NCBI GenBank assembly: GCA_001655195.1
Contig: LPNY01000158.1
Location: forward strand, 182,236 to 238,631
From: Arcobacter sp. EP1
Lineage (GTDB): Bacteria > Campylobacterota > Campylobacteria > Campylobacterales > Arcobacteraceae
Reading direction: 5' to 3'
DNA length: 56,396 nucleotides
In this document: positions 50,912-56,331 of the stretch, piece after piece
Numbering within the stretch: the stretch's first letter is position 1
Layout: each line of letters starts with the position of its first letter
Made by a program: the position numbers and the translations under genes
Notes under the pieces: generated by a model
Databases searched by the model: none
Told to the model about the DNA's origin: nothing
The model's input: the letters and a program-made list of their open reading frames with translations, nothing else

Positions 50912-50931
50912 GTAGTGTGTAGAAACACTAC
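50912..50931. terminator. Bidirectional hairpin between convergent genes
   Basis: GTAGTGT (50912–50918) pairs with ACACTAC (50925–50931). It begins right after the regulator stop and overlaps the last codon of the convergent EI24 gene. The short T tracts make this a weak terminator. Confidence 0.4.
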
Positions 50932-51791
50932 TGTTCTACACGTTCATATCCGCCATTACTATTTGTATTCGCCTCTTTTTCCATCTTAATATCATCCATA
51001 TTATTAATCACACTACCTCGTAATTTATTGAGTTTTCCATAATAAGCATGCCCTAAATAAATAATATAAAATACAGCAGAAAAGAGAGTAATAAAAGGAA
51101 TCATAGAGATAAAATATAAAAATAGTGTTCTACCTCTAAAGGCCAATGAGTTTTTCTTATAAACTACTTCATACTCTTCTTCACTTAAAAGAGTTGACGC
51201 CACATCATAATTTAAGAGCTTATGGAAAAAGTAATACAAAGGAATATTAATCACAACTAAATTTAAAACAGGAATAAAATATAAAGGAACGAATAAAATA
51301 AATAATAGTATCATCACTAAAGTTGATTTTATCAATACCCACAATGGTGATATTAACGTACCATGACCATGAAGTTCTAAATGCTGATAGTGCCGCTTAT
51401 GTAAAACACTTAAAATTCCAGGCGTTAAAAATCCAATAACCACTAAGGTTAAAAAAACAGAGAACATCATCACAAAAACAGTACCCAAAGTATAAACTAA
51501 AAAGCCAACTAGTCCAGAAAGTATTGAGTATTGTACTAAAAACCCAAAAACTGTTGCCATCCAAATAAAATAAAAAGGTGCCGCAGGGTCAATTATCACA
51601 TCGTTACCTGCTTGAACTTGATCTAAATAGAGTTGTAATGCCTCCATTCCGTAACCAGCAGCTGTAAAAAAAACAACATACATCACTACCATTACAAATA
51701 GCAGCGGTATTAATGCAAACATCAACATCTTGGATGTAAAAAAATCTTTTATACTTTGTAGAATAATCTCAAATTCCGTATCGTGACTCAT
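50928..51791 (-). CDS. EI24/CysZ-like membrane protein
   Basis: A 287-residue protein with about six hydrophobic segments. The opening (FEIILQSIKDFFTSKMLMFALIPLL) and the block YYFFHKLLNYDVASTLLSEEEY match the EI24 domain family, which includes the CysZ sulfate transporters. The sulfate-uptake role is not established for this subgroup. The C-terminal 30 residues are charged. It is 37 bases downstream of the radical SAM gene, so they may be cotranscribed. Confidence 0.82.
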   Translation of the reverse strand: MSHDTEFEIILQSIKDFFTSKMLMFALIPLLFVMVVMYVVFFTAAGYGMEALQLYLDQVQAGNDVIIDPAAPFYFIWMATVFGFLVQYSILSGLVGFLVYTLGTVFVMMFSVFLTLVVIGFLTPGILSVLHKRHYQHLELHGHGTLISPLWVLIKSTLVMILLFILFVPLYFIPVLNLVVINIPLYYFFHKLLNYDVASTLLSEEEYEVVYKKNSLAFRGRTLFLYFISMIPFITLFSAVFYIIYLGHAYYGKLNKLRGSVINNMDDIKMEKEANTNSNGGYERVEQ

Positions 51792-51828: not shown

Positions 51829-52719
51829 TTATTGTGAAATAATTGCAGAACTATCAAAGCGTGTTCGGTAAGAACAGTGTTGGCATAACTCTTCAACTAC
51901 CCTATTCTCTTTAAAACCTTTTTGAATAGTTTTCACTCGTGAACTATCCAAAATTGTAGATAAAGAGTCTTCATTAATATTACCCAAATCTATTACGCCA
52001 TCTTTATCCAAACAACAAGGAGTTACTTTTCCTGAAGCTAAAATTGAAAAATGAGAATCAAGACCATAACAAAACCCTTTTTTAGAGACAAAATCATTCT
52101 CTAAACTTGGCCACTCAAAATAGTCATCAAAATTAAAAAATACTTTTGGTGAAATACGAATGTTTTTAGGTCGATTTGTATAAATCTCATTCATATTAAT
52201 TTGTGTATTAAAACGCTCATTTACATAATCAAAAACCGCTTGGTTAAATGCTTTTGCACTTTCATCTTCATCCAAATTCCAAATACGTAGATTGATAAAA
52301 TGGTTTTGTCTATTTTTAATGGCATACTCAATATAAGAAAGAATTGGATCTAAATACTCAATAAGTGTTTTTTTATGGGAGTTTGCATTATAAGAGTTAA
52401 CAGAAAAATTAATCTGTTTTAATACAGGATGTAATAGCATCTCAAACATCAGTTGGCTTAGGTTATTTGCTGTAGTTGTTACATTGACTTTCAAGTTATG
52501 TTTATGTGAAATATCAAAATACTCCCCTAAATTCGTCACCACCAAAGGATCACCCACTACATGATACGCTAACTCTTTAGTATACTCTTTTGCTTGGAGG
52601 TTAATTTTCTCAAATAAAGCTTTAGAGATACTTTGATTAGGTAGTATTTTAGGAGGGCAAAATGTACATTTTAGGTTACAGATATTGGTAATTTCTACAT
52701 GAATCTTTTTATACTTTAT
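51829..52719 (-). CDS. Radical SAM / SPASM-like protein with apparent AUA start
   Basis: The frame includes the radical SAM motif ICNLKCTFCPP (Cys14, Cys18, Cys21) only if it begins upstream of GTG 52557. The in-frame stop is at 52735. Between them there is no ATG, GTG or TTG. The codon ATA 52719–52717 lies six bases after AAGGA and gives xKYKKIHVEITNICNLKC, just where relatives have Met. The 296-residue product has a C-terminal SPASM-like Cys set (PCCLDKDG, ELCQHC) for a second iron-sulfur cluster. The substrate is unknown. If ATA is not used, the gene is effectively a pseudogene. Confidence 0.8.
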   Translation of the reverse strand: MKYKKIHVEITNICNLKCTFCPPKILPNQSISKALFEKINLQAKEYTKELAYHVVGDPLVVTNLGEYFDISHKHNLKVNVTTTANNLSQLMFEMLLHPVLKQINFSVNSYNANSHKKTLIEYLDPILSYIEYAIKNRQNHFINLRIWNLDEDESAKAFNQAVFDYVNERFNTQINMNEIYTNRPKNIRISPKVFFNFDDYFEWPSLENDFVSKKGFCYGLDSHFSILASGKVTPCCLDKDGVIDLGNINEDSLSTILDSSRVKTIQKGFKENRVVEELCQHCSYRTRFDSSAIISQ

Positions 52720-52828
52720 AACAAATCCTTTTCAAAATGAAGTATAACAAACTAAGATAATAAAACGCGTTAAACTCATAGTGAAAATTTTCAAAATTAT
52801 ATTGCTTAAAAGCTGGACATAAAAAAGA

Positions 52829-54709: not shown

Positions 54710-55036
54710 ATGGAAATGATTTTAAATGAGAATGATATTGTTGTTGGTGCCCAATTTGAAAACGGTACAATCCAAGATTATATTGATGATGCACAAACTT
54801 ACGGTTTAGTCAGAATCAATGATGCAACAGTTAATTGGTTTTTGTACAACGATTTAGATAGCCCAGAAGATCTTCAAGAACTTTATAAACGTGTAGTAAA
54901 AAGCCCCAATCACTCTATTCAAGATGATCATGGAGAACAAGTTGTCATGTTTGATAAACAAGGAGATGTTACCTTTGAAGAGTTTGCTTCAATCATCGAT
55001 GCATATTTAGATGCTGAGATGGGTAACTACATATAA
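54710..55036 (+). CDS. Small acidic protein of unknown function
   Basis: A 108-residue, strongly acidic protein. It starts MEMILNENDIVVGAQFENGT and ends IDAYLDAEMGNYI. No signal peptide, membrane helix or Cys is present. AAAGG is seven bases before the ATG. It is 66 bases after the beta-CASP gene and 11 bases before the apparent AUU start of the helicase. I do not recognise the family. Confidence 0.8.
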   Translation: MEMILNENDIVVGAQFENGTIQDYIDDAQTYGLVRINDATVNWFLYNDLDSPEDLQELYKRVVKSPNHSIQDDHGEQVVMFDKQGDVTFEEFASIIDAYLDAEMGNYI

Positions 55037-55047
55037 AAGGATATCCT

Positions 55048-56331
55048 ATTAAAACATTTGGAAATATAGAACTTCATCCACAGATTCTAAAAGCACTCAA
55101 AGAAGAAGGCTACGAAAAACCTACAGAGATTCAAAAAAAAGCGATTCCTGTTATTTTAAAAAAAGTTGATGTAATAGGAACTGCACAAAGTGGTACGGGG
55201 AAAACAGCTGCTTTTACACTACCTATCTTAGATGAGTTACAAGCAACTATCAACCCTGAAAACAGAGTTATTAGAGCGTTAATACTTGTACCTACACGCG
55301 AACTTGCTATGCAAATTTCAAAAGCCATATCTCACTATGGACGTCATTTAGATATTAAACATACTACTGTTGTTGGGGGACTTAGCCATAAAGAGCAACT
55401 GCGAAAAATCAGCAATGGTATTGATATTTTAGTGGCAACTCCTGGACGACTCAAAGATCATTTAAGTAAAAAAGACATCAACTTATCAAGTATTCAAACT
55501 CTTGTATTAGATGAAGCTGATACTATGATGGAGATGGGATTTTTAGAAGATATTGAAGAGATGTTTGTTCAAGCTAGCCATAACCGGCAAATTTTGATGT
55601 TTAGTGCAACTCTTAATCAAAATGTTAAAAAACTTGCTAAAGAGTTTTTAAATAACCCAACAGTGATTCAAATACATAAACAACGTTCAACGGTAAAACT
55701 CATTGAGCATGAAATTTATAAAGTTGATGAAGATAAAAAAGCAGAAATGGTCTCTTTTTTAATCGGAAGCAAAAACTACCACCAAGTTCTTATTTTCGTA
55801 AATACTAAAAAACAAGCTAACACCCTTGTGGATCAATTTAATCTTGATGGATTACCTTCAGAGTGTATACATGGAGATATCAAACAACCAGCACGTGCAC
55901 GAGCACTTAAAAAGTTTAAAAGTGAACAGGTACGTGTTTTAGTAGCAACTGACATTGCTGCACGAGGTATTGATATTGAACAACTTCCTCATGTTATTAA
56001 TTTTGAACTTCCTGAAAGTGTTGATGATTTTACCCATCGTGTGGGAAGAACAGGTCGAGCAGGAAATGAAGGTCATGCAATTACGCTACTATGTACCAAA
56101 GAGTACAAATTTATGGCAGAGATTGAAAAAGAGTTGATTATTAATATTGAACGACAAATTCTTGAAGGATATGAACCTACAGAAAAAGAACCCCGTATGA
56201 TAAGATTCAAGAAAAAACAACTCAGTGAGAAAAAAGGTCAACGAAAACCAGAACGAAAACCTAAAAAAGCTCCAAAAGGTTCTAAAAAAACAACCAAACG
56301 TGACGAAAATAGAAATTTCAGAAGAAAATAA
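55048..56331 (+). CDS. DEAD-box RNA helicase with apparent AUU start
   Basis: A 427-residue ATP-dependent RNA helicase. The Q motif (PTEIQKKAIP), Walker A AQSGTGKT (46–53), PTRELA, VATPGR, LDEAD, FSATL, ATDIAARGID and HRVGRTGR are all present, with a Lys/Arg-rich C-terminal tail of ~60 residues. The only in-frame start upstream of the Q motif is ATT 55048, six bases after AAGGA; the next ATG (55309) would remove motifs Q and I. An in-frame stop at 55024 excludes a longer form. Relatives begin MKTFxxxxLHPxIL, so ATT replaces Met. It is probably coupled with the small acidic gene. Confidence 0.9.
   Translation: MKTFGNIELHPQILKALKEEGYEKPTEIQKKAIPVILKKVDVIGTAQSGTGKTAAFTLPILDELQATINPENRVIRALILVPTRELAMQISKAISHYGRHLDIKHTTVVGGLSHKEQLRKISNGIDILVATPGRLKDHLSKKDINLSSIQTLVLDEADTMMEMGFLEDIEEMFVQASHNRQILMFSATLNQNVKKLAKEFLNNPTVIQIHKQRSTVKLIEHEIYKVDEDKKAEMVSFLIGSKNYHQVLIFVNTKKQANTLVDQFNLDGLPSECIHGDIKQPARARALKKFKSEQVRVLVATDIAARGIDIEQLPHVINFELPESVDDFTHRVGRTGRAGNEGHAITLLCTKEYKFMAEIEKELIINIERQILEGYEPTEKEPRMIRFKKKQLSEKKGQRKPERKPKKAPKGSKKTTKRDENRNFRRK

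Follow-up and report, generated by a model that had tools for sequence, protein, structure and literature searches.

The question raised by this locus is how a gene for a radical SAM/SPASM protein could be translated from a reading frame that lacks a usable canonical start codon (ATG, GTG or TTG). The gene lies on the minus strand of the window (the whole stretch of 56,396 nucleotides analysed, from Arcobacter sp. EP1), and a reading made from the sequence alone had concluded that it needs an AUA start, leaving three choices: a rare start, a silencing ATG-to-ATA mutation or a sequence error. Start codons of this class (AUA, AUU or AUC, hereafter AUH) are, to our knowledge, known for very few bacterial genes. 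Our analysis supports the need for AUA and, among the three choices, the rare start: very probably, the codon is a genuine site of initiation by the ordinary fMet-tRNA, enabled by a strong Shine-Dalgarno sequence (SD) at a fixed distance, with low and probably IF3-sensitive expression. That ATA 52719 is the start is well supported by sequence comparison; the use of this start, the lowered expression and the role of IF3 are inferred, as there are no expression data.

The gene and its start region comprise the following features:

51829..52719, minus strand: radical SAM/SPASM protein of 296 aa, Pfam PF04055 and PF13186 above cut-off
52717..52719, minus strand: presumed ATA start codon of this gene, the sole near-cognate codon at the right SD distance; AUH is found there in 74 of the 90 resolved family orthologs
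52726..52732, minus strand: SD AAAAGGA, 6 nt before ATA, identified by sequence; the upstream stop ends on its first A
52732..52734, minus strand: in-frame stop TGA, five codons upstream of ATA
52741..52746, minus strand: -10-like hexamer TATACT, identified by sequence; putative promoter, with a short leader
52657..52680, minus strand: CxxxCxxC motif (CNLKCTFC), upstream of the first canonical in-frame start
52555..52557, minus strand: GTG, the first canonical in-frame start; the product of a start here would lack the radical SAM motif

On the minus strand the frame reads TGA AAA GGA TTT GTT ATA AAG TAT AAA AAG ATT CAT GTA GAA ... TGT AAC CTA AAA TGT ACA TTT TGC. It contains no ATG, GTG or TTG from the upstream stop (52734-52732, and not 52735 as first given) to GTG 52557, and the motif is upstream of this GTG, just as the sequence-only reading had it. 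The six bases that it counted between AAGGA and ATA 52719 were found as well, the AAGGA core occupying 52730-52726. Its statement that ATA stands where relatives have Met holds for outgroups, in which ATG or GTG is located 8 codons before a conserved Glu, but not for near relatives, which carry ATA, ATT or ATC instead of a Met codon, mostly one codon earlier. The window protein is one codon shorter at its N-terminus than most of its sisters, with an unchanged SD-AUH distance.

The product predicted from ATA matches Radical_SAM (PF04055, 35.4 bits against a cut-off of 29.5) and SPASM (PF13186, 49.6 bits against 21.5), whereas the product predicted from GTG 52557 loses the Radical_SAM match and keeps only SPASM. 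With the CxxxCxxC motif, the Radical_SAM domain and the SPASM auxiliary cluster domain, the protein qualifies as a radical SAM/SPASM protein. No equivalog fits it, every match to the NCBIfam models being below its cut-off. BtrN (chains 4m7s and 4m7t) is the nearest solved relative (match over residues 4-72, E 4e-8) and the only one detected by sequence at E 0.01; the CxxxCxxC motif and the SPASM-type C-terminal cysteines are features that it has in common with radical SAM/SPASM proteins.

To see what stands at this codon elsewhere, we read the start region in all the Arcobacteraceae genomes that carry the gene (93 of 104). Three were left out as unreadable or unresolved (G024, masked; G101, cut; G074, unclear), which left 90 resolved members. 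An AUH start was found in 74 of them (51 ATA, 20 ATT and 3 ATC) and a canonical start in the other 16, so that the AUH state meets the test of conservation across species. A search for ATG in sister genomes, which had been proposed as a check that could refute it, thus leaves the rare start standing. All readable members of genera g1-g4 and g13-g20 have AUH, as do 14 of the 15 members of g9, where the exception is G064 (TTG). Both g6 genomes have ATG, and ATG or GTG was found in all read members of g7, g8 and g11, plus one of g12. Outside the family, the start was canonical in 92 of the 93 members read (samples of 53 and 40).

In a tree of the protein sequences starting at the conserved Glu, the distribution of AUH and canonical starts requires at least four changes, and G064 and the g6 pair fall inside the AUH clade in spite of their canonical starts. 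The number of AUH origins remains uncertain because support is weak for many branches and the tree brings long branches together. The sole AUH ortholog outside the family (L234, identical to L009) shows ATC preceded by TAAGGA at a spacing of 6 nt, and no canonical start; an independent origin of its AUH start is possible.

These data leave practically no room for a silencing mutation or a sequence error at 52717. The assembly is a single draft genome of 229 contigs, which could have harboured an error, but the same feature is present in 73 other family assemblies; as for silencing, the gene is intact, motifs included, and is under purifying selection.

We then examined whether the AUH codon itself marks the beginning of the coding sequence. 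The GG of the SD is located at -8, -9 or -10 in all 74 AUH orthologs. In 50 of them, the stretch that runs from the upstream stop beyond the first Cys of the motif is free of ATG, GTG and TTG, and eight have an in-frame stop only one codon before AUH. The double requirement of an AUH at SD distance and no usable canonical in-frame start is thus met in the window, and strictly in those 50 orthologs. Against this, 16 of the 74 have a canonical codon upstream in frame (in G010, G015 and G027, an ATG two codons before ATA, at a place that would coincide with the SD itself), and in 10 such a codon occurs between AUH and the motif.

Coding constraint was assessed, in the AUH frame only, from single-base codon differences at 71 AUH loci (1500 sampled pairs, window and g20 rows excluded). 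The synonymous fraction was 0.27 in the five codons before AUH and 0.78 just after it, for unconstrained expectations of 0.18 and 0.19, respectively (17-21% overall); the values for the motif and for the body of the protein were 94% and 69%. We conclude from this jump that coding constraint begins at AUH. In addition, a -10-like hexamer starts 22-50 nt upstream (-50..-22) in 57 of the 74 orthologs, compared to a mean of 15.8 and a maximum of 26 in 200 mononucleotide shuffles. The hexamer is absent mainly in g9, where another gene closely precedes the radical SAM gene.

The same data bear on the idea that translation enters from upstream, by readthrough, by frameshifting or by reinitiation after the upstream gene. 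Two situations are compatible with it: in most of g9 the stop of the upstream gene is a few codons away, and the ATT of the helicase described below is 11 nt past the stop of a 108-aa gene. However, in-frame stops occur at variable places just upstream of AUH, the onset of constraint coincides with AUH and the -10-like hexamers leave little room for an upstream ORF, while reinitiation would still use AUH. Altogether, we consider entry from upstream very improbable. A frameshift or an upstream start was rejected in view of the in-frame stops and the onset of constraint; the hallmark of a frameshift or readthrough gene, namely constraint that continues upstream of AUH, was not found in the AUH frame, the only one assayed.

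The type of start codon proved to be tightly associated with the SD. Within the family, no canonical radical SAM gene (0 of 16) has an SD GG at -7..-11, compared to 74 of 74 AUH genes; over the whole tree set (143 resolved rows), the figures are 14 of 69 and 74 of 74. G064 and the g6 pair are among the canonical rows devoid of SD GG. The corresponding Fisher p value (9e-27) overstates the evidence because the rows are related. We interpret the association within the family as an indication that a strong SD is needed for AUH to be used. SD energies were computed with a generic anti-SD because the 16S 3' end was not found by exact pattern in this assembly.

To determine whether other genes share this arrangement, we scanned 430 kb of sequence from this genome, comprising 349 ORFs, for an AUH with an SD that precedes the first canonical codon by 15 codons or more. 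Four ORFs were flagged, encoding the radical SAM protein, an RNA helicase, an AEC-type permease and an MFS protein. Applied to 191 kb of another family member (G026), the scan flagged one of 174 ORFs, the AEC gene; in G416, which does not belong to the family, it flagged none of 153 ORFs over 191 kb. With only 4 of 349 ORFs flagged, an AUH feature shared by 74 of 90 family members is more than chance. The additional genes are as follows (the last two are given by locus and contig coordinates):

55048..56331, plus strand: RhlE-like DEAD-box RNA helicase of 427 aa (PF00270, PF00271), 2.3 kb from the radical SAM gene
55048..55050, plus strand: ATT start codon of the helicase; AUH in the best match of 53 of the 54 family genomes read
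55035..55041, plus strand: SD AAAAGGA of the helicase, 6 nt before ATT, identified by sequence
L290:274-1188 = C76:95274-96188, plus strand: AEC-type permease (PF03547), ATC start behind AAAGGA
L276:3861-5012 = C68:22861-24012, plus strand: MFS transporter whose N-terminus lacks a canonical in-frame start, a situation found in this genome alone

The sequence-only reading of the radical SAM start was right, but it had missed both the family-wide spread of the feature and the ATT-initiated helicase close by. The nearest NCBIfam model of the helicase is RhlE, with a score under its cut-off. Its frame has no canonical start before ATG 55309, which sits past the Walker A motif. The helicase loci were drawn from 54 family genomes (the best 30 of a first search, plus 24 from another search, made in 28 selected genomes): the best matches start with ATC (30), ATA (14) or ATT (9), apart from G072 (ATG), and all 53 AUH helicases have an SD. 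The three second copies of the helicase found in the same genomes all have ATG together with an SD, which indicates that SD and canonical starts do coexist in the family. As regards annotation, ORF callers place the start of the helicase at ATG 55309.

The AEC gene has an AUH start in 47 of the 60 family loci read (26 ATC, 18 ATA and 3 ATT), with an SD in 46 of the 47 (L319 has ATA without a visible SD) and a stop codon directly 5' of AUH in four loci. The 13 other loci have a canonical start, two of them with an SD GG. The MFS gene was dropped as a conserved AUH member, the 29 other family loci read having ATG, TTG or GTG; its start in this genome may be a private AUH start, a mutation or an error. 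Extrapolated from 430 kb to the 3.0 Mb of the genome, the three conserved cases would correspond to an order of 20 such genes per genome, with a very wide margin. On the sequence evidence, the AUH start seems best read as a maintained family state, common to at least two unrelated genes besides the radical SAM gene, those of the RhlE-like helicase and the AEC permease.

Known systems resemble this one in part. In one report, the starts of Staphylococcus aureus ccpN (AUA), cvfC1 (AUU) and infC (AUA) are conserved and directed by a strong SD, and AUA and AUU reporters give about 10% of AUG expression (PMC13009471). Here as there, unrelated genes of one lineage combine AUH with a strong SD; the genes and the phylum differ, however, as does infC, which has AUA in S. 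aureus and TTG here, and the Arcobacteraceae set includes AUC and holds across the whole family. In E. coli, the AUU start of infC and pcnB acts as a translational brake against which IF3 discriminates (PMC9410913); neither gene is involved here, and IF3 dependence is only inferred in our case. The AUU start of Yersinia pestis RcsD-Hpt, which has a ribosome-binding site and was shown to be functional (PMC10191623), differs in that it is an internal start in one recently frameshifted gene and not a family-wide primary start. No AUH start in Arcobacteraceae or on these genes was found in titles and abstracts, nor any report of a family-wide set of AUH-initiated genes in the literature searched; subscription papers were mostly outside the search, and absence is thus unproven. 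In all likelihood, the AUH start is real, and it is the rule in its family. We see it as a variant of the infC/pcnB/ccpN type, carried by at least three unrelated genes.

Might this state be merely tolerated, that is, an ancestral product of drift, compensated by the strong SD, with normal expression and no regulation? The trade-off between SD and start type described above would fit, and so would the third base of the start codon, whose distribution (A/T/C 51/20/3) is roughly like that of the Ile codons of the gene (844/813/123). On the other hand, a single transition converts ATA into ATG, yet none of the 74 AUH orthologs has ATG at this place, while a nearby Lys codon underwent at least 16 A/G changes. 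With G at only 4.5% of the four-fold sites of the gene, however, drift should have produced no more than about three ATG in 74 cases; taken alone, these third-base counts are weak evidence for selection against ATG. Moreover, tolerance does not readily account for the same state in three unrelated genes, or for the expression cost of about 90% that the S. aureus reporters imply (PMC13009471). Mere tolerance thus remains a serious possibility, but an unlikely one.

Alternatively, the initiation machinery of the family could be relaxed, for example through IF3, making AUH a near-normal start. The presence of two other conserved AUH genes within 430 kb is in line with this, and the IF3 of this genome (L174) differs from 8jsg_A, which we take to be E. 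coli IF3, at four positions: R99 is replaced by Ser, Y107 by Ile, R112 by Lys and R116 by Glu. We assume R99, R112 and R116 to be arginines important for 30S binding. However, 2m71_A, presumably Campylobacter IF3, carries the same letters at the four positions, which therefore do not single out this family, and no ORF was flagged in the 191 kb scanned outside it; if the IF3 differences have a part in start-codon discrimination, it could extend to the order as a whole. Nor would a relaxed system require the strong SD to which AUH is tied, and we regard this explanation as improbable.

Two further candidates were rejected. The idea of a variant initiator tRNA reading AUH was abandoned, a pattern search allowing any wobble base having returned four initiator-type anticodon loops in this genome, all CAU; other genomes gave some single non-CAU matches (e.g. 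GGGTTAATAACCC), at a frequency like that of a reversed-pattern control. Likewise, infC does not belong with the AUH genes: TTG is its start codon in 26 of 30 family loci (L159-L188), the other four not being parsed. This conserved TTG differs from the AUU of E. coli infC, and IF3 autoregulation through an AUH on the IF3 gene itself is accordingly not seen in the loci parsed.

We thus favor initiation at AUH by the ordinary machinery. The 30S subunit would be positioned by the SD (A)AAGGA, whose GG is 8-10 nt upstream of AUA, and the ordinary fMet-tRNA(CAU) would pair with the A and U of AUA, with a mismatch at the third base. According to one study, nothing but Watson-Crick pairing is accepted by IF3 at the first and second bases of the codon, and weak pairs at the third base are rejected (PMC10158994). 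Expression of the radical SAM gene would thereby stay at a low level, limited by initiation and possibly adjustable through IF3; a low level is most likely because such starts usually give low translation that depends on IF3 discrimination. A regulatory role of the AUH start is inferred. Since a weak SD alone could give simple low expression, the pairing of a strong SD with a weak codon suggests some reason for retaining the discrimination step, but this is an argument and not data.

More tentatively, and with somewhat less than even confidence, we propose that Arcobacteraceae possess a standing set of AUA-, AUU- or AUC-initiated genes, perhaps tens per genome, all with the same AAGGA-spacer-AUH layout. 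They would make up a regulon sensed through initiation factors, by which an RNA helicase, a radical SAM enzyme and a permease respond to the condition of the translation machinery. Such genes would be truncated or missed by gene callers restricted to ATG, GTG and TTG, the only starts allowed in ORF calling for the A. butzleri genome, as stated in its genome paper (PMC2147049). This is a blind spot of annotation: called from the first canonical codon, the radical SAM protein lacks its catalytic motif and the helicase its Walker A. AUH with an SD on several genes of the family points to a shared, little-known way to set protein amount, and a family that keeps AUH on three unrelated genes with a strong SD provides natural replicates for studying function and IF3 discrimination.

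Finally, the radical SAM gene is probably cotranscribed with the gene that follows it:

50928..51791, minus strand: EI24/CysZ-like membrane protein (PF07264), next gene in the probable operon; same order in L198-L202

In these loci and in the window, the EI24/CysZ-like gene lies 2-38 nt downstream of the radical SAM gene or shows a short overlap with it. The neighbours of the radical SAM gene differ in the other loci compared, and the adjacency is limited to the core genera looked at.
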